This document shows, piece after piece, positions 43,060 to 60,826 of a stretch of 64,000 bases of DNA; the stretch's first letter is position 1; every line of letters starts with the position of its first letter. The stretch lies in NCBI GenBank assembly GCA_033391075.1, contig JAWPMV010000001.1, forward strand, positions 7,378,001 to 7,442,000, in the 5' to 3' direction. The DNA is from Bacteroidia bacterium (GTDB taxonomy: Bacteria; Bacteroidota; Bacteroidia; J057). The notes beneath the pieces were generated by a model that did not search any database, was not told the DNA's origin, and saw only the letters and a list, made by a program, of their open reading frames with translations. Position numbers and translations under genes: made by a program.

Positions 43060-46000
43060 ATGAAAATAGTATTGAGAAATGCATTTGCTTCAGTGAAGAC
43101 GATACTCCTGTTGGGGGTATTCTTTTCTATGGCAGGCATTCAACACAGCTATGCTCAAGTTAATGCTAATTTCTCCCTGTCAGCTACTTCTGGATGTAGT
43201 CCTTTATCAGTCACAGGTACAGATCTATCCACCGGCACGGTAAATAGCTGGTTATGGGCCTTTGGGAATGGAAATACCTCTCGGGTCAATTCGGGGGTTA
43301 TTACTACTTACACCACTCCCGGGACTTATACCATTAGCCTAACGGTCAGAGATACATTGACCGGGGATATAGACACCCACACGGAAACCATTACAGTTTT
43401 TGGTGATCCCACGGCGGGTTTTACTGCTGATGTAACGAGCGGTTGTGCTCCGCTGGATGTCACCTTTACAGATGGCACTACTCCGGGAGATGGAACTTTG
43501 ACCTCCTGGCTCTGGGATTTTGGTGATGGTAATTTAGGAAATACACAAAATCCGACGCATACCTATGCGTCTTCTGGTGATTATACAGTCACCCTGATTG
43601 TTCAGGATGTAAATGGTTGTCAGGATTCTCTGGTCAGGAATGATTATATAACGGTTACCGAACTGGCGACAGTAGATTTCAGTGCGCCTGTACAAACGGG
43701 CTGTGCACCTCCACTCCTGGTTGATTTTACGGCAAGTGTTACCCCTGCTGATCCAACCTATACTTATCTATGGGATTTTGGGGATGGTGCAACTTCAAAT
43801 CAAATGAATCCTTCACACTTCTATTCTACGAATGGAAGTTTTACGGTTTCTCTGACTGTTACTGATCCGGGAGGCTGCCAGGAATTGGTTACAAAACCCA
43901 ATTTTGTCATTATCGATCAACCGATCGCGAATTTTACAGCACTCAGTACCAGTGTTTGTGCAGGTTCCGTTGTCAGTTTTATCAATGGTTCAACAGGAGC
44001 TGATTCTTATACCTGGACCTTTGGGGATGGAAATAGCTCAACAGATGTCAACCCTAATCATACCTATGGCGTTCCGGGTACATATTCGGTGAGCTTATTG
44101 GCCAACAATTCAGCAGGTTGTAATGATGTAGTGGTACAGACGAATTTGATCACAGTGAATCCGGCTCCTTCGGCCGCTTTTTCCGCTACCAATAATATAG
44201 GATGTGAAATTCCTCTTACGGTCAATTTTACAGATAATTCCAGTACGGATGTGATTGCCTGGTCCTGGGATTTGGGGAATGGAGTCATTTCTCCTTCTCA
44301 GAATCCAATTACGACCTATTCAACACCTGGATTCTATGACATCAGTTTGACGGTAACGAATACGAATGGCTGTCAGTCAACAGCTACTATTCCAAACTAT
44401 GTCCAATTGGGAGCTCCCGATGCAGAATTCATTGTGGGACCGACGGAAGGCTGTATGCCTTTGACGGTAAACTTCATAAATACGAGTACCTCTCCTTCCG
44501 ATCCTATTGTATCCTATGCCTGGAATTTTGGTGATGGAACGATCTCTTCATTGGCCAGTCCTTCTCATGTCTATACCGCAGTTGGACTTTATACGGTTTC
44601 TCTGACAGTAACTACAGCCAGTGGTTGCCAGGATCAGGAGATTTTTGCTCCTATAGAAGTAGGGGAGAGACCCAATGCAGATTTTAGTGCAAGTCCTCGT
44701 ACGGCTTGTGTAAATGAGCAAATCAATTTTACGGATCTCACTACCGGAAACGTGAGTGACTGGTATTGGGATTTTGGAGATGGAGCAGGTTCTAATCAAC
44801 CAAATCCAACACATCAGTACCAGGATACCGGCCTTTTTGATGTTCGTTTGATTGTTGAATTAAACGGATGTAGAGATACTATAGAAAGACAGGATTACAT
44901 TCAAATTCAGGGACCGGTTGCGGCCTTCCTGATGTCGCCAACTGCAGCCTGTGATCCACCAACGACAGTAAGTTTTTTCGACAACTCCATCAATGCGAGC
45001 ACTTATCTCTGGGACTTTGGAGATGGGAATACTTCAACTCAGGCCAATCCAAGCCATACCTATAATACAGTCGGAACCTATACCATTACCCTGACAATTG
45101 TAGATAATGTCTCAGGTTGTACCGATCAGATACAGCAGGATCTTCCTGTTACCCGCCCGCAGGCTGCCTTTACCGGTGATTTGACAAAGGGTTGTGTAGA
45201 TATGACCGTCAATTTTATCAATGGCAGTATAGATGCATCTGCTTATGTATGGGATTTTGGAGATGGAAATACCTCAACTGCAGCAAGTCCTACTCATACC
45301 TATACGAGTCCTGGAAATTATACGGTGATGTTGATTGCATCGGATGGCGCATGTTCTGATACCCTGATCCGAAATAACTACATAGAGGCAGTTGCTACCA
45401 ATGTAGATTTCTCGGTTGATGTAAGCAGTGGATGTGCGCCATTGACGGTAGAGTTTACCGATCTTTCCACGCCTTATCCCGGAGCGAGCATCAACAATGT
45501 TACCTGGTTGTTTGGAGATGGAGGAACTGCTACAGGCAGTCCGGTTACCTATGTATATAATAGCGGAGGGAGTTTTGATGTAACGCTCAGGGTAGAGGAT
45601 TCAGAAGGTTGTGTTACTGAACTTAGCCGATCAGGATTTGTCGCACCAACTTTACCAGAAGCAGAATTTACAACTACAGATACAGTTGCCTGTCCGGGCT
45701 CACGGGTAGACTTTACCAATCAGTCTCAGGGGAGCATAGTTAGCTATCAATGGGATTTTGGAGATGGAAGCCCTCTGGCCTCCACGCCCAACCCCAGTCA
45801 CTTATATACAACGAATGGTTTTTATACCGTAACCCTCACCGTCACAGATGTAAATGGATGTACGGATACAGAGAGCAAAGTTAACTTTCTGAATATAGGC
45901 AGACCGACGGCAAGCTTTGTCGCGGATAATACAGTGGCGACCTGTCCACCCATGACAGTGAATTTTACTGATCAGTCCAGTCCGGATGTAGTTTCCTGGT

Positions 46001-49000
46001 TATGGGATTTTGGAGATGGAAGCACTTCTGTTTTAGCAAATCCCTCCAAGATTTACACCATACCCGGCGACTATGATGTAAGCCTGATGGTGACCAATGC
46101 ACAAGGATGTACAGATACCCTCTTGATGGATGATCTCATTGATTTGAATGGTCCTACGGGTGCATTTACCTTTACCCCTAATGAAGGTTGTAGGCCCCAT
46201 ACGGTAAACTTTACGGCTACAAGTCCTACGCCCGGATGGACCTATACCTGGGATTTTGGAGATGGAACCGGAGGAAGTGGAACCACGATCAGCCATGAGT
46301 ATCAAACGGATACGACCATCAACCCCCTCATGTTTGTCGAGGATGATCAGGGATGTAGCGTTTTGGTTACCAATCCCAATAGTGTCGTGATTCGACCCTT
46401 ACCAGAGCCCAGTTTTATCAGCAATATTACAGAGGTTTGTTTGGGTCAATCTGTGATCTTTACCAATACTTCTACTTCAAAAAGATCCATTACAGATTTC
46501 TTGTGGGATTTTGGGGATGGAAATACTTCTACCTCTATCAATCCTACCCATGCTTATGCAGATACGGGAACCTATGATGTCTACCTTCGATTAACTACCG
46601 TTGATGGTTGTATCGATACAAGTAGTGTACCCCTTACTATTACTGTGACAAATCCTCCGGATGCGATCTTCACGGCTTCTCCCAATGTGGGATGTGAGCC
46701 TTATTTCGTAAGCTTCACCGAAAGTTCTACCGGAGACTATCCTTTGGTAGATTGGGCCTGGAGTTTTGGAGATGGAACTTTGGGAAGCGGGCAGGTTATT
46801 GCTCCTCATCAATATACGACTGCTGGCAATTATACAGCTACCTTAAGAGTTACGGATAATAGAGGATGTTCGAGTACCCTTACTCAGCCGATTACGGTTA
46901 ATCCTCTGCCTCCTGTAGAGTTCTCTGCTTTTAGGTATGGATGTGCTCCGATTACTGTGGCCTTTACAGATGAGACCATTCATCCTTCAACATTGGTTTC
47001 CTGGCTTTGGGATTTCGGCGATGGAAATACCTCCACCGTTCAAAACCCTAATCATACGTATACGACGGATGGAACCTATACGGTAAGTCTTACAGCTACG
47101 GATATCAATGGCTGTACCTTTACTACGATCAAAACAGATTACATAAAACTGGAGCATCCGCAAGCCAATTTTGTCTCAAATGCGGGCGTAACTTGTCCTC
47201 CGCAGGTGGTGAACTTTGTTGATACTTCCGTTCCGGATACAACGATTAGCTGGCGCTGGGATTTCGGAGATGGATCTCCGGTTTCCAATGCTCAGAATCC
47301 GACACATACCTATTATTCCAGTCCGGATACCTTCGATGTAAGCCTCATTGTAACCAATATTTTTGGCTGCGCAGATACTATTGTGAAGCCACAGCATGTC
47401 ATTACCTATGAGCCACCGAATGCGTCTTTTACCATTTCTGATACTTCTGCTTGTGTACCTCAAAATATAGTGGTTGCCAGCACCAGTACCTCCAATGCCA
47501 ATGGAGTCGCCATTAACGGATATTTCTGGGATTTCGGTACAGGTAGTGGATTAAATTCGCCAACGGCCAGTTTCTTATACAGCACTGCAGGAACTTATTC
47601 TATTAGCCTGGAAGTTACGGATGCAAACGGATGTAAAGACACAGCAAGTAAAGTGGTTTACATTCACCCGAATCCGGAGATAGATTTTATTGCAGGTGAT
47701 ACGGTTGGTTGTGCTGTTACAGCTATCAGCTTTACCGGAGTATCTACAGGAGTAAATGCTCCAGTACTTTGGGAGTGGGATTTTGGAGATGGGAAAAGTG
47801 GAACAGGTCAGAATCCTACCAATACCTATTTCAATGATGGAACTTATAGTGTCAGTCTAAGGGCAACAGATGCAAATGGTTGTCGGGATTCAGTCACCAA
47901 GATAAACTATATTGAACTTGACCATCCAACTGCCGACTTTTCTGTAGATCAATTGCAGACCTGTCCGGGGACGGCAGTTACGTTTAGTGATCTTTCGACC
48001 GGAAATTTCCCTATGAGCAGTTGGATTTGGGACTTTGGGGACGGTAGTCCACTTTCATTCGCCCAAAACCCAACGCATACCTATACTGTAGGAGGGACCT
48101 ATACGGTAAGTCTGGTAGTATCTGATGGAATAAATTGTCGGGATACCCTTACCAGAAATACCTATATACAAGTCTATGATCCTCCGGTAGCAGCATTCAA
48201 TGTTACTCCGAGTCAGGATTGTATTCCGATGAATGTATCTTTCTCAGATGTTTCTACCAATGGAACAGCAAGTATCGTTTCCTGGGCCTGGGATTTTGGA
48301 GATGGAGGAACCTCTTTGGTGCCAAATCCAAATTATTCTTATGCTACAGCCGGAACCTATACGGTAAGCCTCACAGTAACCGATGGAAATGGTTGTCAAT
48401 CGACGATTTCCAATACCGTAGAAGCTTTACAAACGCCCATTGTGGACTTCATGGCTGATCAACCTTTAGGTTGTGCTCCTCAGGGAATCACCTTCTCAGA
48501 CCTGACCGTCAGTCCTTATGTGAAAACTTCATATTTCTGGGACTTCGGAGATGGGACAACTTCTACTTCACCTGGTCCCTTTCATCAATACAATAATGAT
48601 GGAGTATATACGGTGAAATTGATCGTAGAGGATCAAAATGGATGTAGAGACTCGCTTACCAAAAATAATTATATCAGACTTTCGCATCCGGTATCCAATT
48701 TTACCTGGGATGCAACAGAAGTTTGTCCTAATGTACCCGTAGGTGTAAGCTTTACAGATGTCTCTATTCCTGATACGACCATAGTGGCCTATGTCTGGGA
48801 TTTTGGAGATGGGACTACTTCCACTGAAATCAACCCTTCACATTCTTATAGCACTCCCGGAAATTATAGCGTTTCTCTGCGAGTCATCAATGTATTGGGA
48901 TGTACAGATGATACAGTCCAATCGAACCTGATTGAGGTCCTGAATCCTCCAGCGACGGATTTTTCCATGACTGACTCCGCCAATTGTACCCCCTTAACTA

Positions 49001-52000
49001 TCCAGTTTGGAGATCTTTCGGTACAGGGAGATACAGCCATTTCTTCCTGGAATTGGAACTTTGGAAACGGGGATTTCTCTTTGAGCCAAAATCCGGTTTA
49101 TACCTGGAATACTTCAGGCGTTTATACGGTCAGTTTGACAACTCGAGACCTAAACGGCTGTGAAACTACAGATAGTGTGCAGGTGCACGCCTTCAATATG
49201 CCTGAAGCTAATTTTACTTCCTCTCAGGAAGTCGGCTGTGCACCTCAGAGTGTTTCATTCACCAATACTTCTACTGCACCTTATACCCTGACTTTTTTCA
49301 AATGGTATTTTGGCGACGGTGACAGTGCGGTGAATATTGAAAATCCGGTTCACGTATATCCTGTTGATGGCGATTATACAGTAACGCTCATCGTGGGAGA
49401 TGTAAATGGTTGTACCGATACCTTAGAGAGAACCCATTTCATTCGACTCAGCCATCCAGTAGCTGACTTCAACTTTGATCAAAGTCTGGTTTGTCCAGGA
49501 ATACCGGTGGGAGTAAGCTTTACTGACACTTCCGTACCGGATACAACCCTATCCACCTGGAGCTGGGATTTTGGAGATGGAACTACTTCCAATTTGCAAA
49601 ATCCTACCCATTCCTATAGTGCAGGAGGGACCTTTACCGTCAGCCTGATCGTGGAGAATGTATTAGGATGTAGAGATACTTTGATTAGAAGTAGTGCGAT
49701 TCGCGTACATGATGCTCCGCTTAGCTCATTTACTCTTTCCGATAGTACGGGTTGTGAGCCATTGAGCATAGATTTTACCAATACAACTACCACTGTAATT
49801 AATCCCGTTGTTTCCTGGGATTGGCAATTTGGAGATGGAAATAGTTCTTCGCTGAATTCGCCTTCTCATGAATTTGTCAATCATGGCAGCTATACTGTAA
49901 GTCTGACTGCAACGGATAATGAAGGCTGTACGGCGACTTATGCAAGGGATGTACTTGTATATGAAAATCCGGTAGCCAATTTTACGGCTAGCGATAGCCT
50001 CAGTTGTGCTCCTATCGATATTACATTCATCAGTAGTTCTACAGGAGCAGCAGCTTTGTCTGCCTGGCAATGGGACTTCGGTGATGGCAATACTTCCACT
50101 GCGCCCGTTCCGGTAAATACCTATGCAGCAGATGGAATATATGATGTGAGCCTGATTGTAACGGATATCAATGGCTGTACGGACACGCTTGATAAGCCTC
50201 AGTATATTAGGCTAAGTCACCCTCAAGCTGAATTTACGGCTGATCTGTTTGAAGTTTGTCCAGGCGAAACCATCCAGTTCACGGATACCTCAGTGCCAGA
50301 TACAACATTAGCGACATGGAGCTGGAACTTCGGAGATGGAAGCACTTCTTCTGTGCAAAATCCTTCTTATAGTTATTCGACTCCGGGAACCTATACCGTT
50401 GAATTGACCATTGAGAATATATTGGGTTGTGGAGATACGGAGACGAAAACAGCCCTTATACGAGTACTCACTCCACCTACTGCAGACTTTATCGTTGCAG
50501 ATACCATTGGATGTACGCCCTTCCTGGCGACATTCACCGACAACTCACAGGGAAATCCAGATCCGATCGTGAGTTGGCAATGGGATTTGGGAGATGGCAG
50601 CACTTCAAGTGCACAGAACCCATTTATCACCTATTCAACTCCTGGTATCTATACCGTGAATCTGACCATTACAGATAGTAAAGGATGTACGGCAACAACA
50701 ACGAAAAATATGGAAGCAGCTACCTTACCAGTTGCTAACTTCCAGTCCAGTGATTCAGTGGGTTGTGCAGCTTTCATCACCTTTACCGATCAAAGCCTGA
50801 CAGACTACGGCATTGCCAATTGGATATGGGATTTTGGAGATGGAAATACTTCCACTCAGCAGAGCCCAACGCATAGCTATTTTTCAACCGGTATCTATTC
50901 TGTTTCTCTGATGATTGAGGATATAAATGGTTGTAGAGATACCCTGAGTAAGCCGAATCATATCAACCTGACACGTCCGGTTGCGCTCTTTGGCCAAAGC
51001 CAGGAAACCATCTGTCCGGGCAGCCCGGTTGAATTCAGAGATGTGTCGATTCCAGACTTCCCATTGGTAGGATGGAATTGGGATTTTGGAGATGGAAATG
51101 TTTCGACCAATCGAAATCCTTCCCATGTCTTCACGACTCCGGGGGTTTATACCGTTACGCTGACCATTACCAATAGCAAAGGTTGTACAGATACGGAGAC
51201 GAGTACAGTTACAGTCCTTACGCCACCTATGGCTGATTTTGGTATACCTGTAGTACAAGGTTGTGTGCCCGTAACCGTGAACTTTGCGGATAGCTCCATT
51301 TCAAATAGTGGACCTATATCTAGTTGGAGTTGGGACTTTGGAGATGGTAGTACCGGAAGTACGCCTAATATCACGCATGTATATAACAATCCCGGTACCT
51401 ACCATGTGACTCTGACAGTTAGTGATGGAAATGGATGTACGGATGATACTGTAAGACAAGTTATTGTAGATCCCCTGCCAACAGTTGCATTCATTGCAGA
51501 TCAGACGGTGGGCTGTGCTCCGGAAACGATAAACTTTACGAATCAATCCACAGGCGTAAATGCTTTGGTGAGCTTCTTATGGGACTTTGGAGACGGCAAT
51601 ACTTCGACAGCAACTTCTCCTTCTCATACTTATGCAAGCGATGGATTGTATACGGTGAAATTGGTTGTAACCGATATCAACGGTTGTCAGGATTCATTGA
51701 TAAGAGTGGATTACATTCGCCTAAGACATCCACAGGCAGAATTTACTTATACGCCAGCAAGAGGATGTCCGGGAACAGAAGTTCAGTTTACCGATACTTC
51801 TCTTCCGGATACGACTTTGAATTCCTGGTTGTGGGACTTTGGTGATGGCAATACGTCCACACTTAGAAATCCTGCACATGTATACGCAAATGCGGGTATG
51901 TATACCGTGAGTTTGACAGTAGGCAATATACTGGGATGTGGGGATACGGAAACCAAAGTGGATATCATTGAGATTCTGCAGCAGCCTAATGTATCCTTTA

Positions 52001-55000
52001 CGCCAGCAGATACGGCGCAGTGTACTCCCTTTGCGCTGCAGTTTATCAATACATCCACTCCTGCAACAGCACCCATCATTGGCTATCAGTGGGATTTTGG
52101 AGATGGATTCAGTTCTACCCTCCCAAATCCAGCGCACACCTTCAATACGGCCGGTGTGTATGATGTGCAATTGATCGCCGTTGATGCTAATGGTTGTTTG
52201 GATTCTGTGAGCAATCAAATCAATGCAAGGCCGCTGCCAATTCCGAATATCACGGCCAGCGATAGCCTGGGTTGTTCACCTAAGCAGATCAGTTTCTCTG
52301 ATCAAACCGTACACAGTGCAGTTATCACTGCCTGGAACTGGGACTTTGGAGATGGAAATACCTCTGTGGTACCTTTCCCCGTCCATACCTATAATGCAGA
52401 CGGAGTATATAGCGTGAGTCTGACCCTTACGGATGAGTTCGGTTGTGTAGGTTCAATCACCAAACCAGATTGGATCAATCTTTCTCATCCTGTAGCAGAC
52501 TTCAATACCAATTCGGTGCAGGTATGTCCAGGTACGATTGTGAACTTCGGTGACCTTTCGACAGTAGATACGACAATCATTGGCTGGGCCTGGGACTTTG
52601 GAGATGGAAATACTTCCAATCAGCAAAACCCCATTCATACCTATACGACACAGGGAAATTATAATATTAGTCTGACGGTAACGGATGTATTTGGATGTAG
52701 CCATACTGAAACAAAGAATAGTTTCATACAGGTCTTGGATGCACCGACGGTCAGTTATGCCGTGAACCTGCCCGCAGCTTGTACACCTTTTGAGGTGACA
52801 TTCACCAATCAGTCTACTCCCAACTCAAGCCCAATCGTAAGTTGGCAATGGGACTTCGGAGATGGAAATGTTGATAATATTGCGAATCCCGTACACAGCT
52901 ATCAGACACCAGGAGTATATACTCCAGTATTGACAGCAACTGATGGAAATGGATGTTCGGCAAGTTTCTCTCGTCAAGTGGAAGCATGGAGCCTGCCAGA
53001 AGTGGCTTTCTTTAGCCCGGACACGCTCGGCTGTTCTCCATTGGATGTGGCCTTCTTTGACCAAACGACAAGCAGTAGTCTGATCACTTCCTGGCAATGG
53101 GACTTTGGAGATGGTACGACTTCTAATTCGACCAATCCGGTCCATACCTACAATGCAGATGGAATCTATGATGTTTCTCTGATTGTTCAGGACTTCAATG
53201 GATGTACTGATACGCTGGAAAAGGAGCGCTATATCAAGTTGACCAATCCAGTTGCGGAATTTAATTATACACCAAATATCGGTTGCCCCGGTACAGAGGT
53301 TCAGTTTACAGATGCTTCTATACCTGATACAACCATTGTCCAGTGGAGATGGGATTTCGGAGATGGTGCGACTTCTCTCCAGAGAAACCCGCTCCATACC
53401 TATCAGGTGCCCGGAATCTACTCTGTAAGTCTGACGATCACCAATGCGATCGGTTGTACCGATATTCATCAGAAAAATAATATCATAACGATAGTTGTTC
53501 CCCCGGAAGCTGACTTCCTCTTGCCAGATACCTTGAGCTGTACGCCTTTTGCGATGCAGTTGAGAGATCTGAGCCAAACCGTATCCGCTCCGATTGTGGA
53601 TTGGAATTGGGACTTTGGAAATGGAGACGTTTCTAATGCGCAGGAGCCGAGTTACAGTTATTTGGTCCCCGGAAACTACACCATAGAGTTGACGGTAATC
53701 GATGCCAATGGTTGTAGAGATTCCGTGAGCAAAGAAGTGGTAGCAGCATCTGCTCCAATTGCAGAGTTCGGATCTCCGGATACGGTAGGTTGTGCTCCAC
53801 AGCAGGTGAGATTTGAAGATCAATCCGGTGGTGCTTATCAATTGGTAAGTTGGGAATGGAACTTTGGCGATGGGAATACTTCCATCCAAAGGAATCCGGT
53901 ACATACCTATACACAGGATGGCAATTATACCGTTAGCCTGATTGTAACAGACCTTAATGGTTGTTCAGATACCCTGATTCGTCAGGATTATATCAGACTC
54001 AGCCATCCTCAAGCAGAATTTGTGGCGGATCAATTGGCAGGATGTGAAAATACGCTGGTGAACTTTACCGATACCAGTATAGGTGATACGACTTTGGTTA
54101 GATGGAGATGGGACTTTGGAAATGGCATACAATCGGTATTACAAAATCCTTCGCATACTTACAGAAGCTTCGGTCAGTTTGATGTGAAACTGGTCGTCAC
54201 CAATGTACTGGGATGTAGCGATAGCGTTACGCATGTCCGGGAGATCGATATATACGAGCCTCCGGTAGCAGCTTTCGTAGCAACAGACACGATTGGCTGT
54301 GTGCCGATTCAGATAGATTTTGAGGATCAAAGTAGCAGTCCATTTGGTATTGTGAGTTGGGAGTGGTTCCTGGATTCTACCCTTGTAGGACAAACACAGC
54401 AGATCTCTCAGTACTTCCCGAATGTTGGAGATTACGAATTGAAATTGCGAGTAGTGGATGCTAATGGTTGTGTGGACTCAACGATACAACTAATTCAGGT
54501 GAAACCTATTCCAGTGTCTAATTTTGTAGCATCCGATACACTAGGCTGTGCTGAGGAGACGATTGGATTTACAGATCTGAGTGTACACACGCCTTCACAA
54601 TGGTTGTGGGAATTTGGAGATGGAAATACTTCTACGGAACAAAGTCCGGTACACACCTATATCAAAGACGGTGTTTACAATGTCAAACTGAGCATCACGG
54701 ATCAATTTGGTTGTTCGGACGAGCGCGAAAAGATTCGATACATTGAGTTGGATCATCCTACGGCTGACTTCATCGCCACTTACGATCCGGGTTGTCCACC
54801 GCTGCCAGTGAAATTCCAGGCAACTGGTTCCGGATTGACAGGCATTGCAAATTGGAGATGGAACTTTGGAGATGGTAATGAAGGGAGCAGCAGAGCAGAT
54901 ACCATAGATTATGTATACCAAACGGCAGGCATTTATGATGTTACCCTGACAGCTACAGATTCGCTGGGTTGTTCAGTAAGCATCACCAAGCCTGAGCTGA

Positions 55001-56397
55001 TCGATGTGATTGGTGATATCATTCCTGATCCGATAAGCGTCCACCGGGTGAGTACCATTGGCAATAATCAAATTCTCATTCAATGGGCCCCACATAATGA
55101 TGATGACTTCCTGTCTTATACCATCTACCGAGATGATAGTACAGGGTTTGCACCGGTACATACGAGTTTCTCTCTGAATGATACCATGTTTATCGATAAT
55201 ACAGTAGCTGCCAATCTGAACAACTATTGTTACAAAGTGGCTGTTACCAATTATTGTGGATCAGAGTCTTCGCTCAATTTGACACAGGCTCATTGTACAG
55301 TAGAATTGACTGCTAATCCTACACCGAGCCAGATCATTCTGAGTTGGACTCCTTATCAGGGATGGCCAGTATCTCAATATGAGATTTACAAGGTTGATTC
55401 TTATGATCCGAACAATATGACCTTCCTGGGAGTAGTGCCGGGTGTTGTTACCCAATTCTCAGAGGCTTTGGAAGACTGTTTCAGTGATTTCTCCTATCGC
55501 ATCAAAGCAATTGGAGGAGCCAGCCACCAGGTTTCATTTAGTGATACCAGCCAGGCAGTCAATTTCCTCGGAATTATCGGACAAGCTAATGAGGTCGTAA
55601 CTGCTACGGTAGAAAATGATCTGAATGTGAAAGTGAGTTGGAAGCCCTTTACCGTAGAAGATGTGGCCCTGATTTATGTGGAGAAGGAAGATGAGACAGG
55701 TGTGCAGACGATTACTGCTACCCTTCCTCCAAGCAGTACAGAATTTGTCGATCAGGATGTGTATGTAGACGAACAATCTTATATCTATCGGGTATATGCT
55801 CAGGATAGTTGTGGAAACTCAACTCCGATCAGTAACCTCGGCAAAACGATACTTCTCAGCGTTGAGAAAGATTTGACAGGTGTTTCCCTTAACTGGAGTG
55901 CTTATGAGGATTGGAGATTTGGTCCGGATCGATATGAGATTCAGGTTAAGAATGATACAACAGGTGCCTGGGAACTGGTAGATGCCGTTCAGGGAACGCA
56001 GACCAGCTATCTGGATACCAAGACACGATTGGATCAACCTGAGTATTGCTACCGAATCCGAGCGATAGAGCGAGGGGGTAATGATGCCATCAGTGTGTCC
56101 AATGAAGATTGTATAAGTCTGGGAGATGATATTTACATCGGTAATGCTTTCACTCCGAATGGAGATGGAGTCAATGATGAGTTCAAAATTCTCGGCATAC
56201 AGGTACAAAACTTCAACCTGAAGATTTTCAGTAGATGGGGAACTCTCCTCTTCGAAACCAATAGCATCGACGATGCCTGGGATGGAACCTATAAAGGGCA
56301 ACCAGTCGATGAAGGAGCTTACACATTCGTAGCTACAGGAGTGAGTTATGACGGAAAACGATTCCAGTATACCGGAACGGTTACCGTATTGAGATAG
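43060..56397 (+). CDS. Giant PKD-repeat exoprotein (4445 residues) with T9SS type B sorting domain
   Basis: A single 13.3-kb reading frame. Signal peptide to about residue 32 (ending HSYAQ). 47 PKD units follow to about residue 3980, each near 83-86 residues with the core WDFGDGNTST..NPTHTY and one Cys near each end (GCAP..., VNGC), which probably form a disulfide. 46 units have a recognisable FGDG-type loop; unit 45 is degenerate. Units 17-46 are arranged in ten triplets. Then come three or four fibronectin-III-like domains (about 3985-4357; ILIQWAPHNDDDFLSYTIYRDD, IILSWTPYQGWPVSQYEIYK). The end is a gliding-associated/type B CTD (NAFTPNGDGVNDEFKILG, LKIFSRWGTLLFETN, AWDGTYKGQPVDEGAYTF). The plan suits a long surface filament for adhesion or SprB-like gliding; the ligand is unknown. 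A terminator follows 23 bp after the stop. Confidence 0.92.
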   Translation: MKIVLRNAFASVKTILLLGVFFSMAGIQHSYAQVNANFSLSATSGCSPLSVTGTDLSTGTVNSWLWAFGNGNTSRVNSGVITTYTTPGTYTISLTVRDTLTGDIDTHTETITVFGDPTAGFTADVTSGCAPLDVTFTDGTTPGDGTLTSWLWDFGDGNLGNTQNPTHTYASSGDYTVTLIVQDVNGCQDSLVRNDYITVTELATVDFSAPVQTGCAPPLLVDFTASVTPADPTYTYLWDFGDGATSNQMNPSHFYSTNGSFTVSLTVTDPGGCQELVTKPNFVIIDQPIANFTALSTSVCAGSVVSFINGSTGADSYTWTFGDGNSSTDVNPNHTYGVPGTYSVSLLANNSAGCNDVVVQTNLITVNPAPSAAFSATNNIGCEIPLTVNFTDNSSTDVIAWSWDLGNGVISPSQNPITTYSTPGFYDISLTVTNTNGCQSTATIPNYVQLGAPDAEFIVGPTEGCMPLTVNFINTSTSPSDPIVSYAWNFGDGTISSLASPSHVYTAVGLYTVSLTVTTASGCQDQEIFAPIEVGERPNADFSASPRTACVNEQINFTDLTTGNVSDWYWDFGDGAGSNQPNPTHQYQDTGLFDVRLIVELNGCRDTIERQDYIQIQGPVAAFLMSPTAACDPPTTVSFFDNSINASTYLWDFGDGNTSTQANPSHTYNTVGTYTITLTIVDNVSGCTDQIQQDLPVTRPQAAFTGDLTKGCVDMTVNFINGSIDASAYVWDFGDGNTSTAASPTHTYTSPGNYTVMLIASDGACSDTLIRNNYIEAVATNVDFSVDVSSGCAPLTVEFTDLSTPYPGASINNVTWLFGDGGTATGSPVTYVYNSGGSFDVTLRVEDSEGCVTELSRSGFVAPTLPEAEFTTTDTVACPGSRVDFTNQSQGSIVSYQWDFGDGSPLASTPNPSHLYTTNGFYTVTLTVTDVNGCTDTESKVNFLNIGRPTASFVADNTVATCPPMTVNFTDQSSPDVVSWLWDFGDGSTSVLANPSKIYTIPGDYDVSLMVTNAQGCTDTLLMDDLIDLNGPTGAFTFTPNEGCRPHTVNFTATSPTPGWTYTWDFGDGTGGSGTTISHEYQTDTTINPLMFVEDDQGCSVLVTNPNSVVIRPLPEPSFISNITEVCLGQSVIFTNTSTSKRSITDFLWDFGDGNTSTSINPTHAYADTGTYDVYLRLTTVDGCIDTSSVPLTITVTNPPDAIFTASPNVGCEPYFVSFTESSTGDYPLVDWAWSFGDGTLGSGQVIAPHQYTTAGNYTATLRVTDNRGCSSTLTQPITVNPLPPVEFSAFRYGCAPITVAFTDETIHPSTLVSWLWDFGDGNTSTVQNPNHTYTTDGTYTVSLTATDINGCTFTTIKTDYIKLEHPQANFVSNAGVTCPPQVVNFVDTSVPDTTISWRWDFGDGSPVSNAQNPTHTYYSSPDTFDVSLIVTNIFGCADTIVKPQHVITYEPPNASFTISDTSACVPQNIVVASTSTSNANGVAINGYFWDFGTGSGLNSPTASFLYSTAGTYSISLEVTDANGCKDTASKVVYIHPNPEIDFIAGDTVGCAVTAISFTGVSTGVNAPVLWEWDFGDGKSGTGQNPTNTYFNDGTYSVSLRATDANGCRDSVTKINYIELDHPTADFSVDQLQTCPGTAVTFSDLSTGNFPMSSWIWDFGDGSPLSFAQNPTHTYTVGGTYTVSLVVSDGINCRDTLTRNTYIQVYDPPVAAFNVTPSQDCIPMNVSFSDVSTNGTASIVSWAWDFGDGGTSLVPNPNYSYATAGTYTVSLTVTDGNGCQSTISNTVEALQTPIVDFMADQPLGCAPQGITFSDLTVSPYVKTSYFWDFGDGTTSTSPGPFHQYNNDGVYTVKLIVEDQNGCRDSLTKNNYIRLSHPVSNFTWDATEVCPNVPVGVSFTDVSIPDTTIVAYVWDFGDGTTSTEINPSHSYSTPGNYSVSLRVINVLGCTDDTVQSNLIEVLNPPATDFSMTDSANCTPLTIQFGDLSVQGDTAISSWNWNFGNGDFSLSQNPVYTWNTSGVYTVSLTTRDLNGCETTDSVQVHAFNMPEANFTSSQEVGCAPQSVSFTNTSTAPYTLTFFKWYFGDGDSAVNIENPVHVYPVDGDYTVTLIVGDVNGCTDTLERTHFIRLSHPVADFNFDQSLVCPGIPVGVSFTDTSVPDTTLSTWSWDFGDGTTSNLQNPTHSYSAGGTFTVSLIVENVLGCRDTLIRSSAIRVHDAPLSSFTLSDSTGCEPLSIDFTNTTTTVINPVVSWDWQFGDGNSSSLNSPSHEFVNHGSYTVSLTATDNEGCTATYARDVLVYENPVANFTASDSLSCAPIDITFISSSTGAAALSAWQWDFGDGNTSTAPVPVNTYAADGIYDVSLIVTDINGCTDTLDKPQYIRLSHPQAEFTADLFEVCPGETIQFTDTSVPDTTLATWSWNFGDGSTSSVQNPSYSYSTPGTYTVELTIENILGCGDTETKTALIRVLTPPTADFIVADTIGCTPFLATFTDNSQGNPDPIVSWQWDLGDGSTSSAQNPFITYSTPGIYTVNLTITDSKGCTATTTKNMEAATLPVANFQSSDSVGCAAFITFTDQSLTDYGIANWIWDFGDGNTSTQQSPTHSYFSTGIYSVSLMIEDINGCRDTLSKPNHINLTRPVALFGQSQETICPGSPVEFRDVSIPDFPLVGWNWDFGDGNVSTNRNPSHVFTTPGVYTVTLTITNSKGCTDTETSTVTVLTPPMADFGIPVVQGCVPVTVNFADSSISNSGPISSWSWDFGDGSTGSTPNITHVYNNPGTYHVTLTVSDGNGCTDDTVRQVIVDPLPTVAFIADQTVGCAPETINFTNQSTGVNALVSFLWDFGDGNTSTATSPSHTYASDGLYTVKLVVTDINGCQDSLIRVDYIRLRHPQAEFTYTPARGCPGTEVQFTDTSLPDTTLNSWLWDFGDGNTSTLRNPAHVYANAGMYTVSLTVGNILGCGDTETKVDIIEILQQPNVSFTPADTAQCTPFALQFINTSTPATAPIIGYQWDFGDGFSSTLPNPAHTFNTAGVYDVQLIAVDANGCLDSVSNQINARPLPIPNITASDSLGCSPKQISFSDQTVHSAVITAWNWDFGDGNTSVVPFPVHTYNADGVYSVSLTLTDEFGCVGSITKPDWINLSHPVADFNTNSVQVCPGTIVNFGDLSTVDTTIIGWAWDFGDGNTSNQQNPIHTYTTQGNYNISLTVTDVFGCSHTETKNSFIQVLDAPTVSYAVNLPAACTPFEVTFTNQSTPNSSPIVSWQWDFGDGNVDNIANPVHSYQTPGVYTPVLTATDGNGCSASFSRQVEAWSLPEVAFFSPDTLGCSPLDVAFFDQTTSSSLITSWQWDFGDGTTSNSTNPVHTYNADGIYDVSLIVQDFNGCTDTLEKERYIKLTNPVAEFNYTPNIGCPGTEVQFTDASIPDTTIVQWRWDFGDGATSLQRNPLHTYQVPGIYSVSLTITNAIGCTDIHQKNNIITIVVPPEADFLLPDTLSCTPFAMQLRDLSQTVSAPIVDWNWDFGNGDVSNAQEPSYSYLVPGNYTIELTVIDANGCRDSVSKEVVAASAPIAEFGSPDTVGCAPQQVRFEDQSGGAYQLVSWEWNFGDGNTSIQRNPVHTYTQDGNYTVSLIVTDLNGCSDTLIRQDYIRLSHPQAEFVADQLAGCENTLVNFTDTSIGDTTLVRWRWDFGNGIQSVLQNPSHTYRSFGQFDVKLVVTNVLGCSDSVTHVREIDIYEPPVAAFVATDTIGCVPIQIDFEDQSSSPFGIVSWEWFLDSTLVGQTQQISQYFPNVGDYELKLRVVDANGCVDSTIQLIQVKPIPVSNFVASDTLGCAEETIGFTDLSVHTPSQWLWEFGDGNTSTEQSPVHTYIKDGVYNVKLSITDQFGCSDEREKIRYIELDHPTADFIATYDPGCPPLPVKFQATGSGLTGIANWRWNFGDGNEGSSRADTIDYVYQTAGIYDVTLTATDSLGCSVSITKPELIDVIGDIIPDPISVHRVSTIGNNQILIQWAPHNDDDFLSYTIYRDDSTGFAPVHTSFSLNDTMFIDNTVAANLNNYCYKVAVTNYCGSESSLNLTQAHCTVELTANPTPSQIILSWTPYQGWPVSQYEIYKVDSYDPNNMTFLGVVPGVVTQFSEALEDCFSDFSYRIKAIGGASHQVSFSDTSQAVNFLGIIGQANEVVTATVENDLNVKVSWKPFTVEDVALIYVEKEDETGVQTITATLPPSSTEFVDQDVYVDEQSYIYRVYAQDSCGNSTPISNLGKTILLSVEKDLTGVSLNWSAYEDWRFGPDRYEIQVKNDTTGAWELVDAVQGTQTSYLDTKTRLDQPEYCYRIRAIERGGNDAISVSNEDCISLGDDIYIGNAFTPNGDGVNDEFKILGIQVQNFNLKIFSRWGTLLFETNSIDDAWDGTYKGQPVDEGAYTFVATGVSYDGKRFQYTGTVTVLR
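47149..54750 (+). repeat. Higher-order repeat: ten blocks of three PKD units (750-768 bp each)
   Basis: A signature related to LSHPxAxF recurs once every three PKDs. It starts at 47149, 47917, 48679, 49447, 50212, 50968, 51721, 52480, 53239, 53998 and 54748, with steps of 768, 762, 768, 765, 756, 753, 759, 759, 759 and 750 bp. Within a block the first PKD opens with a CPG...PDTT phrase, the second with CTPF...STP and the third with a GC.P phrase then DGxYxVxL. The first 16 PKDs do not show this period. Confidence 0.85.
54280..54510 (+). other. Degenerate PKD unit (number 45)
   Basis: Here the WDFGDGNTS core is replaced by WEWFLDSTLVGQTQQISQYF, while the flanks (GCVPIQIDFEDQS, DYELKLRVVDANGC) are intact. 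The fold is probably kept but the Asp-rich loop is lost. It is the only unit in the array without an FGDG/FGNG/FGTG/LGDG-type loop. Confidence 0.75.
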
Positions 56398-57500: not shown

Positions 57501-57585
57501 GCGGATGTGGCGGAATTGGTAGACGCGCTAGATTCAGGTTCTAGTGCCCATTGCGGGCGTGAAGGTTCGAGTCCTTTCATCCGCA
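57501..57585 (+). tRNA. tRNA-Leu (anticodon CAG)
   Basis: 85-nt cloverleaf. The acceptor stem GCGGATG pairs with CATCCGC plus discriminator A. The anticodon stem is CTAGA/TCTAG with loop TTCAGGT, giving anticodon CAG. A long variable arm (TGCCCATTGCGGGCG) is typical of class II tRNAs, and the T arm is GGTTCGAGTCC. The 3' CCA is not encoded. It recognises CUG codons. Confidence 0.95.
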
Positions 57586-57587
57586 CA

Positions 57588-57621
57588 AATGCCAGCCTTC
57601 AGGGCTGGCATTCGTGTTTTT
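57588..57621 (+). terminator. Terminator of tRNA-Leu
   Basis: AATGCCAGCC/GGCTGGCATT, a perfect 10-bp stem with loop TTCAG, followed by CGTGTTTTT. It begins 3 nt after the tRNA and touches the end of the converging protease gene. Confidence 0.8.
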
Positions 57622-59161
57622 ACAACTGTCGCCTTGTTTCGATAATGAGGGATACTAATTCTCCCGAATCTTTCAGGGAATTGAAGGCGATCTTCCCATT
57701 TTCGTACTGGACATTCCGGGCTGATACCATCTCGCTTCCCAGAGCTTGCTGGACCCTCCGTGTAAGCGTCCCGGAGGCAGCTTCTATTTTTTCCTGAATG
57801 CTGGAAATGTTGAGAGGGTTCTTGGCAAAAATCACGCAAAGGTAATCCCGATCAGAATCACTTTCATCCAACTGAATATAATGTCGACTGTCCGGCACAT
57901 TCATCGGAGCAGATGAACCATCGAGTAAGGCATTTCCTCCATTTTTTTGAGGAAAAAGCTGGACGGTTTTATAGCTGGCATCCGTTCCTAGTACATATAC
58001 ATAGGCGCCATTTGCAGTGGAAAGTTGTATGCGAAATTTTGTTCCTTTTGCATAGCGTTCTTTGGTTCTGTAAAGGTTGCCATATAGGCGGGCTTGCATC
58101 TCATCGCCATCAGACCTGATGAGTTTTACCTCACCTGCCAGACCAGATATAGAAGCACTGGCGGTTTTAGTATAGCTGTTTTGCGTTTGTTTTTGATAGG
58201 ATTTTGGAGCAGACTTTTTAGGACCAGGCTTATTAGCTTGTGTAGCATTAGGTCTGCTTTTAGGAGAAGGATTCTCTTTGCTCGCGATTTGAGGGCGAGA
58301 ACCCTGAGTCGGGGATCCTTGAGAGCCCATAGGAACATAGGCGTATTTGGCGAAGTGCACAAAATCATCATATTTCACCCAGATGAATCCGCCATTTCCC
58401 CAGCCTTGCCCCCAACTATTCATGATTTCAAAAGCGCCTCCAAATTTCTTATTGTCATAACTGACTACACACATCGCATGACCAAAGTATTGGGTGGTAT
58501 TCAGTTCCTCCGCTCTGTTCCAAACTTCCATGCCATCGGAGCGCTCAAAAGAAGGCGTGCATTTCATCCCAATTATGACCGGACTCCCGTCAGCAATGGC
58601 TTTCTTGACAGACAGCAATTTGAGCTTTTGGGGATCTTTCAAAAAAAACAGGCGACTGTAATCATCTATGGTATATCTTTTTGCTACGGGATAAAGACTG
58701 GAAGGAATACTTCCCGAGCAGGCATAATCGAAATCTCTCTTGGGCACGACTCCACGCTCTTTCAAACTTCGCAGGGCTTTCTCTATGCTGGTCGGAGTGA
58801 AGCAGGATTGATCTGTGCTGATAAGTCTGTAGGTGAAAGCGGGCGAAAATGCATTTACATTGACCGCTCCCCCTTGCTTGATATTGCTGGCTTTATTGTA
58901 GAGAATCGTTCGTGCTGCATAGGCACTCGACCAACCTACACAATTGTTGTATTGTCCCTGATTTTGTGGTTTGGGGGCATAGGCTTTGAGAGAGGCTTTA
59001 TTCGGTAGGCGGGCAGCTGTAGCATCCCTAACCAGAGGAACTGTAATGGCAGAACCTTCATAAGCCACATCATCAAATTCAAGTCCTCCGGCATATTTTT
59101 CCTGAGCCATCAGAGGTGATAGTAATATGCAGCAAAGCAGTAGCGAAAAGTAGCTTTTCAT
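57620..59161 (-). CDS. Secreted papain-like (C1) protease with C-terminal DUF4384 domain
   Basis: A 513-residue protein with a signal peptide (LLLCCILLSPLMAQ). The peptidase C1 domain (about 50-280) shows the catalytic set: Cys74 in QNQGQYNNCVGWSSAYAA (preceded by the oxyanion Gln), His228 in FGHAMCVVSYDN and Asn248 in FEIMNSWGQGWGNGGF. A Lys/Pro/Gln-rich linker (about 290-335) leads to DUF4384 (about 350-513; RIQLSTANGAYVYVLGTDA, SDRDYLCVIFAKNPLNI). DUF4384 is more often attached to caspase-like domains; here a caspase protein is encoded just upstream on the same strand (99-bp gap), so the pair may form an operon. No propeptide is obvious. Confidence 0.88.
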   Translation of the reverse strand: MKSYFSLLLCCILLSPLMAQEKYAGGLEFDDVAYEGSAITVPLVRDATAARLPNKASLKAYAPKPQNQGQYNNCVGWSSAYAARTILYNKASNIKQGGAVNVNAFSPAFTYRLISTDQSCFTPTSIEKALRSLKERGVVPKRDFDYACSGSIPSSLYPVAKRYTIDDYSRLFFLKDPQKLKLLSVKKAIADGSPVIIGMKCTPSFERSDGMEVWNRAEELNTTQYFGHAMCVVSYDNKKFGGAFEIMNSWGQGWGNGGFIWVKYDDFVHFAKYAYVPMGSQGSPTQGSRPQIASKENPSPKSRPNATQANKPGPKKSAPKSYQKQTQNSYTKTASASISGLAGEVKLIRSDGDEMQARLYGNLYRTKERYAKGTKFRIQLSTANGAYVYVLGTDASYKTVQLFPQKNGGNALLDGSSAPMNVPDSRHYIQLDESDSDRDYLCVIFAKNPLNISSIQEKIEAASGTLTRRVQQALGSEMVSARNVQYENGKIAFNSLKDSGELVSLIIETRRQL

Positions 59162-59190
59162 AAGGTGGAAGTTTTAAGGAGTAGTGCGGT

Positions 59191-59257
59191 GGTGTTTTAG
59201 TGTTGTAGTTGGCGTGAGGCTAGCTCTTGAACTTCAACCCTACAAAACTATAACACT
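59191..59257. repeat. TG/AC-rich inverted repeat between the protease genes
   Basis: AGTGTTGTAGTT (59199-59210) and AACTATAACACT (59246-59257) pair with one mismatch. Wording resembles the GTGTTGG-rich elements near 4410 and 26810. Confidence 0.3.
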
Positions 59258-59260
59258 GTC

Positions 59261-60826
59261 TCAGTTAACTTTAAAATAAAAATCCCCTTCGATAGAAGAA
59301 TTTTCCCAGGGGATTTGGGCACCATTGGATTTTATTCGAACCTGAGTTCTGACTTTTTTAAAGACGTCTTCAATTTTAAGGCCGGGAACAGTCAGGGCAT
59401 TGAGGAGTTCCTGGGTATATAGACCATTTGCTCCCATCCCATCAGCCGCGACAGAACCCGGAGCCGTTGCAAAAGCAATGAAGGTTCCGCTGGGAGCTGC
59501 TGTAATATTGAGCCCTTCGCCAGTACGACTTCTCAGCGCCCGGGTATAAGGATTGTTTCTGCAGGCATCCAGAATTACAATATTCATGCGATTGTCTGCA
59601 TCTTCCATTTCACCCATCACCCGATAAAGTTCGACGGATTCTAATTCGACATCCAGTTCTCGTTCTATTTTGGCACCTACTGGAATAAGGTAATTATTCC
59701 CGTTTACCTGCATCCCATGTCCGGCAAAATAAAAGAGACCAATGCCTCCGTTTTGGCTAATGGCTTTCCCAAAATCCCGTATTGCAACTTTCATGTCGCG
59801 TTGACTGATGTCGGTATGTAGCATCACATCAAAGCCCAGAGCTTTGAGGGTTTGAGCCATAGATTCCGCATCATTAACCGGATTTCTTAAGGGACCATTA
59901 TTATATCCACCATTTCCGATGATCAAGGCAGTCCTTTTTTCATCTGCTTTCGCAATGTTACTGAAATTGGCTTGTATACTTTTGCTACTGGAGGCACTCC
60001 TTCCGGCTGCATTACTCACAAAGACCTGGAGTTGATTTTTACCTGGTTTTAAGGAAATTTCTCTTCTCAGGCTAAAGTTGCAGGCTTCACTTGGAACAAT
60101 CTTAAAACCTCGACTTCCCTGTTGCACCTCTCCATTAACATAAAATTCTACCTGCTCCACTTTGCTATCGCTCTGGATGCAAAGGGATACTTCCATTTTA
60201 GAATCATTAACCTGAACAGAAGCCTCAACAGGATTCATCCAATTGATGCTTGCTTTTTGGGGCCCCTGCTGCGCATCTATTGGATCAGCATTAGCGGGAG
60301 CGGCCTGGGTAAATTGACCGTTTTGCCACTGACCACTTCTCTTTTTTCCAGAAGATGCGATAAAGGTTCCAAAGCCATTTCGCTGATCGTTTACCCAATC
60401 TCCTACATAGCTTGATCCATCCTTCCAATAGTAAGTGCCGGTTCCCTGGCGTTTTCCATTCATAAATCCGCCAATGTATCGATCCCCACTTTTATATTCC
60501 TTACTTCCTGTTCCCGTCATGCGATTGTTTACAAAAGAACCTCTGTAAACATTGCCATTGGGCCAGGTGTAGGTTCCTCTTCCATGTTTGGAATCTTTCT
60601 GCCATTGACCATTGTAATATGCGCCACTGTCATATTGGAGTTTTCCTTTCCCATGCTTCATTCCCTCTCTCCACTCACCGCTATATTGAGAACCATCTCG
60701 ATAGACATAGGTTCCCTGACCGTTTTCACAGTTTCCACTTACACAGGCACTATTTTGGGCAGAAATAAAAGAAAATGAAAGAATGAGCAAGCAAAAGCTA
60801 AGGGACTTTCGCATAGATGTATGCAT
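59261..60826 (-). CDS. Secreted caspase-like (C14) protease with N-terminal MORN repeats
   Basis: A 521-residue protein. Signal peptide to about residue 24 (ILSFSFISAQ). Six MORN repeats of 23 residues fill about 35-172 (GQGTYVYRDGSQYSGEW, GKGKLQYDSGAYYNGQW, GRGTYTWPNGNVYRGSF, GTGTYYWKDGSSYVGDW). An Ig-like beta segment follows (about 195-290), then the C14 domain (about 298-521) with RTALIIGNGGYNNGPLRNPVNDA, catalytic His370 in FYFAGHGMQ and Cys422 in IVILDACRNNP, and the basic-specificity metacaspase look. The second ATG (60814) is an alternative start. Unusually for a caspase homologue it is exported. It is upstream of the C1-DUF4384 gene and likely acts together with it. Confidence 0.88.
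   Translation of the reverse strand: MHTSMRKSLSFCLLILSFSFISAQNSACVSGNCENGQGTYVYRDGSQYSGEWREGMKHGKGKLQYDSGAYYNGQWQKDSKHGRGTYTWPNGNVYRGSFVNNRMTGTGSKEYKSGDRYIGGFMNGKRQGTGTYYWKDGSSYVGDWVNDQRNGFGTFIASSGKKRSGQWQNGQFTQAAPANADPIDAQQGPQKASINWMNPVEASVQVNDSKMEVSLCIQSDSKVEQVEFYVNGEVQQGSRGFKIVPSEACNFSLRREISLKPGKNQLQVFVSNAAGRSASSSKSIQANFSNIAKADEKRTALIIGNGGYNNGPLRNPVNDAESMAQTLKALGFDVMLHTDISQRDMKVAIRDFGKAISQNGGIGLFYFAGHGMQVNGNNYLIPVGAKIERELDVELESVELYRVMGEMEDADNRMNIVILDACRNNPYTRALRSRTGEGLNITAAPSGTFIAFATAPGSVAADGMGANGLYTQELLNALTVPGLKIEDVFKKVRTQVRIKSNGAQIPWENSSIEGDFYFKVN

Follow-up and report, generated by a model that had tools for sequence, protein, structure and literature searches.

The 64,000-nucleotide stretch of DNA analysed here (the window) comes from a Bacteroidia bacterium (assembly GCA_033391075.1, contig JAWPMV010000001.1, positions 7,378,001 to 7,442,000). 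Its minus strand carries two open reading frames (ORFs) that together span 57620-60826: first the gene of a 521-aa exported caspase with MORN repeats, an Ig-like segment and a C14 domain (59261..60826), and second the gene of a 513-aa exported papain-like C1-DUF4384 protein (57620..59161). The 99-bp gap separating them (59162..59260) contains no terminator-like site. We propose that the pair is an exported two-step proteolytic switch in which the caspase would cut the papain zymogen, and we put the probability of this at roughly one half.

Both proteins were characterised from their ORFs, Pfam matches, AlphaFold models and fold comparison. The models were built from 65 and 43 aligned sequences (pLDDT 87 and 83), and both catalytic domains are modelled with confidence. 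The signal peptides were judged by eye from the sequence, not by SignalP: the caspase signal peptide covers residues 1-23 (60758..60826), where pLDDT is low, and that of the papain covers residues 1-19 (59105..59161), with a helix at 2-18 in the model. Their ends, FISAQ↓N and PLMAQ↓E, respectively, are typical of Bacteroidota. No C-terminal sorting domain of the type IX secretion system was matched by Pfam in either protein (E up to 0.01), and both are therefore predicted to be periplasmic or simply Sec-exported.

In the caspase, the signal peptide is followed by MORN repeats (residues 24-175; 60302..60757; Pfam MORN E=1.5e-28, Foldseek MORN1 E=1e-17) that form about six β-hairpins in the model. 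Between these repeats and the caspase domain lies an Ig-like segment (residues 190-287; 59966..60259), whose Big_7 match (E=0.0013) falls under the Pfam cut-off and which is modelled as a β-strand domain. The C14 domain itself (residues 297-517; 59276..59938) matches PF00656 at E=4e-40, with 138 bits against a cut-off of 21.4 and over the whole domain (profile positions 1-233), which places the protein in peptidase family C14. The dyad motif (HG ... D-x-C) is intact, and its residues His370 (59717..59719) and Cys422 (59561..59563) are each kept in 50 of 50 partner caspases. The best fold matches of the protein are MORN1 and MALT1.

The papain-like C1 domain of the second protein (residues 52-281; 58319..59008) has a Pfam C1 match over residues 128-265 (E=6e-7). 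The best fold matches of this core are papain-like enzymes, among them xylellain with Z 28.4 over 245 residues in a VIA alignment that took in model residues 7-281. The C1A papain fold is accompanied by the full set Gln68, Cys74 (58940..58942), His228 (58478..58480) and Asn248 (58418..58420); Gln, Cys, His and Asn are kept in 77-79 of 79 relatives, Cys in 77 and both His and Asn in all 79. The statement of the preliminary description that two cysteine proteases with signal peptides and intact catalytic residues lie head to tail was thus confirmed by ORFs, Pfam and alignments. Pfam reports no I29 pro-domain, and a short stretch at the N-terminus can be aligned to the extension found there in xylellain. 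Beyond the C1 domain, a disordered, basic and non-conserved linker (residues 285-341; 58139..58309; pLDDT mostly below 60) leads to a DUF4384-type C-terminal β domain (residues 342-512; 57626..58138; pLDDT mostly above 85). The Pfam DUF4384 match, over residues 370-416, is weak (E=6e-5, with 23.5 bits where the cut-off is 27, and a score of 27, right at the cut-off, in the genome scan); L157, a relative of the same architecture, passes the cut-off with 27.5 bits (loci and genomes are cited by their L and G numbers). It had been suggested that a split or swap had taken DUF4384 from the caspase to the papain. This idea was rejected because C1-DUF4384 is the normal form of this papain family: it is found in 79 of 79 loci, and also where caspases are absent.

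Recurrence of the pair

How general is the pairing? We gathered 80 loci by similarity to the C1-DUF4384 protein alone, with neighbours unselected; 79 had a usable focal gene. The expected co-occurrence of C14 beside C1-DUF4384 was found: C14 genes occupy 45 of 148 flanking positions (23 of 76 at −1 and 22 of 72 at +1), or 30%, versus 5 of 519 positions at offsets of at least three genes, or about 1%. The adjacent C14 genes are often only 2-50 bp away, occur in either gene order and, in 44 of 45 cases, are on the same strand as the papain. No other neighbour family is comparably common among these loci. The pairs fall into 10 to 19 sequence clusters (19 at 60% identity), and the pairing state changes 18 times on the C1 tree. 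Distances among C1 and among C14 sequences are correlated (r=0.67, with 0 of 2000 permutations above 0.21), a correlation to which shared species history contributes. Pairs are found in records labelled Bacteroidota, Chlorobiota, Thiomargarita, Sulfurovum and spirochaete. Compared with partners in Bacteroidales-, Chlorobi- and Thiomargarita-labelled records, whose genes stand in the same order, the caspase domain of the window shows 56-68% identity. C14 and C1-DUF4384 are a recurrent pair across several phyla. Two abundant families might also come to lie side by side by chance, or by hitch-hiking in a few clades, with no functional consequence; the 16 C14 matches in the window's own genome and the inflation of the counts by related rows would fit such an origin. 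Given the offset profile, which strongly disfavours it, and the spread of the pairs over so many clusters and labels, we regard functionless adjacency as highly improbable.

The survey result is matched in an even sample of 197 class genomes: the exported C1-DUF4384 proteins of G152, G142 and G174 adjoin C14, as does a C1-MORN form in G145, and the membrane-anchored "MPIR" and lipoprotein C1 subfamilies have no adjacent C14. Exceptions are two more exported C1 genes in the window's own genome and an exported copy in G007, which have no same-strand C14 neighbour. We note that one membrane-anchored C1-DUF4384 protein with an MPIR start (L035, 4987-8345) lies beside a dynamin-like GTPase, and that this subfamily does not occur with a caspase in the loci examined. 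Several of the C14 matches of the window's own genome cluster in a 21-kb stretch (G000 C1:1427772-1449073).

Exported like that of the window, the partner caspases vary chiefly in their N-terminal part. The Ig-like segment is common to others of them, and the CasN_Big profile matches in L030. The N-terminal module is MORN in L084, L089, L092, L093, L094 and L097, WD40 in L030, DUF7477 in L080, Sel1 in L107 and L145, TPR in L140 and L149, and Ig/Glucodextran_B in L095 and L108. Two classes can be distinguished, DACR caspases, mostly upstream of the papain, and DACF caspases, mostly downstream. In L173 (2679-7440) the modules are swapped, such that a caspase-TPR gene is followed by a papain that itself bears MORN repeats. 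Since the catalytic residues are kept while the N-termini vary, both enzymes appear to stay active as one recognition module replaces another. Some operons have additional members. In those of the Ignavibacteria type (L146, 9357-10523; similarly L150 and L154) an extra protein is encoded between papain and caspase, which in L146 is an FGE-sulfatase-domain protein, and in a spirochaete-labelled record (L206, 3-3637) DUF4384-only, C14 and C1-DUF4384 genes stand in a row.

A candidate activation site and a matching pocket

What might the caspase do to the papain? After the signal peptide, the papain family has the N-terminal pattern G-L-x-F-D-D-x-x-Y ... L-T-R-S-x-x-x-L-P-x-x-S-L-K. The first motif marks a short pro-segment (residues 20-45; 59027..59104), delimited by family conservation and the xylellain alignment, and the pro-segment ends with Arg45 (59027..59029), the predicted P1 residue of an activation cut (PLVR↓DAT). 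Arg45 is 29 residues ahead of Cys74 and about seven ahead of model residue 52, the counterpart of position 1 in mature enzymes of the papain type, and model confidence falls around it (pLDDT to 60 in block 41-50). By these alignments, the stretch sits where the pro/mature junction belongs. The site reads Thr-Arg↓Ser in most relatives and Val-Arg45↓Asp in the window papain; the logo built from 47 pairs reads A/P-x-L-T-R↓S, and P2 is Thr in 39 of them. Papain-family autocatalysis favours a bulky hydrophobic residue at P2. Thr at this position is unlike that preference, and we count it in favour of a caspase cut.

The presence of the Arg, scored as [TSVMILN]R at the aligned place, follows that of caspases. 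Among all rows, related ones included, 47 of 52 caspase-adjacent papains have it versus 21 of 58 non-adjacent ones (Fisher 4e-9), and among exported types only the figures are 47 of 52 versus 21 of 41 (p=4e-5). Furthermore, as one would predict if the Arg serves a caspase, all 18 genomes with an Arg-bearing papain and no adjacent caspase encode a caspase elsewhere, for example the MORN-caspases of the L077 and L078 genomes at other loci (L194 and L193), versus two of eight genomes with an Arg-less papain (Fisher 1.2e-4); one of these two papains, L210, has no evident signal peptide. Likewise, of the three C1 genes in the window's own genome, the caspase-adjacent one alone has the Arg. The Arg tracks the presence of a caspase in the genome, which is suggestive, not decisive. 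In several flavobacteria without an adjacent caspase (L115, L119, L127, L129, L130, L136 and L138), we observed a lipoprotein of about 163 aa encoded directly after the papain; the L115 copy has no Pfam match, and the neighbouring papains lack the Arg.

The caspase has a candidate pocket for such a site. Its nearest solved relative is MALT1 (phmmer E=2e-14), in which Asp365, Asp462 and Glu500 form the pocket for P1 Arg (PMC4357240). The aligned residues of the window caspase are Asp319 (59870..59872; 49 of 50 partners), Asp420 (59567..59569; 50 of 50 partners) and Asp462 (59441..59443), the last being Asp or Glu in 20 of 20 DACR-class partners and Ser in 27 of 27 DACF-class partners. The acidic S1 pocket that characterises the paracaspases of C14B(P) is therefore present as judged by alignment, which suggests that the window caspase keeps a MALT1-type Arg pocket and would prefer Arg at P1. 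The best MALT1 substrate, LVSR (PMC6207715), broadly resembles the L-T-R of the papain site.

It had been suggested that the caspase activates the papain or is activated by it. The conserved Arg and the Arg-type S1 pocket favour the first direction, with the cut itself a prediction. The reverse, in which the papain would cut and activate the caspase, for example by a cut in the L4 region or one that frees it from the MORN scaffold, seems to us distinctly improbable: Arg-rich residues do follow Cys422 in the window caspase, in keeping with that symmetrical suggestion, but the pro-segment and the conserved candidate site are on the papain, a non-exhaustive search identified no comparable site in the caspases, and L4 cleavage is dispensable for MALT1-type caspases (PMC4357240). 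We also considered, and rejected, a caspase cut site in the linker of the C1-DUF4384 protein; the window linker is rich in Lys and Arg, but the linker is neither conserved nor basic in other pairs.

Several observations weigh against a caspase-to-papain switch. Among 395 phylum genomes, most of the closest homologues of the caspase lack a C1 neighbour, so the caspase needs no papain next door; the idea that close homologues are always paired was rejected, as among 16 phylum matches only the window has a C1 gene within 1.5 kb. With one row per 60% cluster, the Arg is present in 13 of 18 adjacent papains versus 13 of 33 others (p=0.04), and among exported types only the dereplicated comparison gives p=0.13. 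Tree-based independent pairs point in the same direction but are too few for significance, and adjacency alone is thus not the right predictor. Five caspase-adjacent papains (L124, L134, L147, L158 and L173) lack the Arg, the Arg-less genomes mostly represent one flavobacterial clade, and the DACF-class caspases lack the third S1 acid. Moreover, the products of neighbouring genes in a secreted pathway may have a substrate in common and yet not act on one another. The two enzymes could then be co-regulated exported proteases that attack the same substrates in peptide nutrition or envelope turnover, the papain maturing by itself or through a C11, C25 or trypsin-like Arg protease. Classical cathepsins can autoactivate, C1-DUF4384 is widespread also without an adjacent caspase, and the five Arg-less neighbours would be readily accommodated. 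Parallel action does not lead one to expect an adjacency so far over background and in both gene orders, nor a uniform Thr-Arg↓Ser site that tracks caspases in genomes, and we consider it unlikely, although a serious contender.

A predicted caspase-to-papain cascade

For the proposed switch we infer the following steps from the pairing, the active sites, the conserved Arg and the pocket, all of them read from sequence. First, the MORN array (elsewhere WD40, TPR, Sel1 or Ig modules) would cluster or dimerise the caspase upon binding a ligand in the periplasm or at the cell surface. Second, the active caspase would cut the pro-segment of its neighbour after Arg45, and the cleft of the papain would thereby open. 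Bulk proteolysis might then fall to the mature papain, which DUF4384 would tether or aim. MORN proteins dimerise, and the solved MORN1 proteins are dimerisation modules; the one tested for membrane binding, that of T. brucei, did not bind membranes (PMC7725318), which makes the earlier suggestion that the repeats bind lipid or the envelope doubtful. MALT1 in turn requires dimerisation for activity (PMC4357240). Given that MORN arrays dimerise and paracaspases need to do so, ligand-driven clustering could switch the caspase on. More broadly, and slightly short of even odds, we propose a previously unrecognised extracytoplasmic cascade, present in several phyla, in which Arg-specific caspases with swappable repeat scaffolds would activate papain zymogens at Thr-Arg↓Ser.

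What purpose could such a cascade serve? Caspase relatives take part in bacterial defence, and the exchangeable scaffolds would suit a module for abortive infection or self-lysis in the periplasm, directed at phage or rivals. A PADLOC caspase model gives a weak partial match to the window caspase (E=2e-8); the gene set of the PADLOC system was not found, and neither the papain nor a 181-aa neighbour has a convincing PADLOC match. Nothing specific to a known defence system emerged from PADLOC or the phage collection, scans of ORFs, Pfam and PADLOC recognised no defence genes next to the pair, and no record in the phage collection encodes the papain. Both proteins are exported, and the gene order around the pair is kept in Flavobacteriaceae, which together with the absence from phage records argues against a mobile defence island. 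We therefore hold such a module to be improbable. Chromosomal synteny is conserved around several of the flavobacterial loci, and for this reason our guess is that the caspase-to-papain switch serves in envelope stress or in a controlled digestion of the cell itself, and not in defence against phage. In the window, a tRNA-Leu(CAG) gene on the plus strand (57501-57612) stands ahead of a perfect hairpin of 11 bp with a T-run, the hairpin ending 8 bp away from the papain stop codon, and a 4445-aa exported protein with many PKD-like repeats is encoded upstream on the plus strand (43060-56397).

The components of the pair have known relatives. With MALT1, its best solved relative, and the prokaryotic para- and metacaspases (MEROPS C14B), the window caspase shares the three acidic S1 residues and a putative Ig-like domain beside the caspase domain, and MALT1 depends on dimerisation, as is proposed for the window caspase; the latter differs in being bacterial and exported, in its N-terminal MORN scaffold and in being encoded with a papain-like zymogen. 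Similarly, the papain has the fold, catalytic set and short N-terminal extension of xylellain-type bacterial C1A peptidases, and differs in its C-terminal DUF4384, the Arg at the pro/mature junction and its caspase neighbour. MORN-metacaspases of the same architecture and a Sel1-caspase are listed in Baltic Sea metagenomes (PMC4933709), and the part of that source which lists them notes neither a papain partner nor export. DUF4384 is combined with the caspase fold in cyanobacterial caspase-DUF4384 fusions and, together with a second protease domain, in alphaproteobacterial trypsin-pseudocaspase-DUF4384 proteins (PMC7475262, PMC6426788); unlike the window pair, these are single chains, and in the alphaproteobacterial ones the HC dyad is missing from the caspase-fold domain. 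Finally, the predicted arrangement resembles in outline the animal caspase cascades, in which an initiator clustered on a scaffold cleaves a second cysteine protease while this is still a zymogen. Here the second protease would be a clan CA papain, the P1 residue Arg instead of Asp and the site of action outside the cytoplasm, and we intend an analogy, not membership. We found no description of a C14 / C1-DUF4384 operon in the open-access literature and no NCBIfam model naming one, and we rate the system as a widespread pairing of exported enzymes from known families that has so far gone unrecognised and whose putative activation site can be tested.

Relatives of caspases abound in bacteria; the literature examined describes them mainly from sequence and names no partner substrate for the exported ones. 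The genome context, the candidate site and the S1 pocket point to one specific substrate, encoded next door. If this is true, scaffold-driven caspase-to-zymogen cascades would operate outside the bacterial cytoplasm, with a papain as the executioner.

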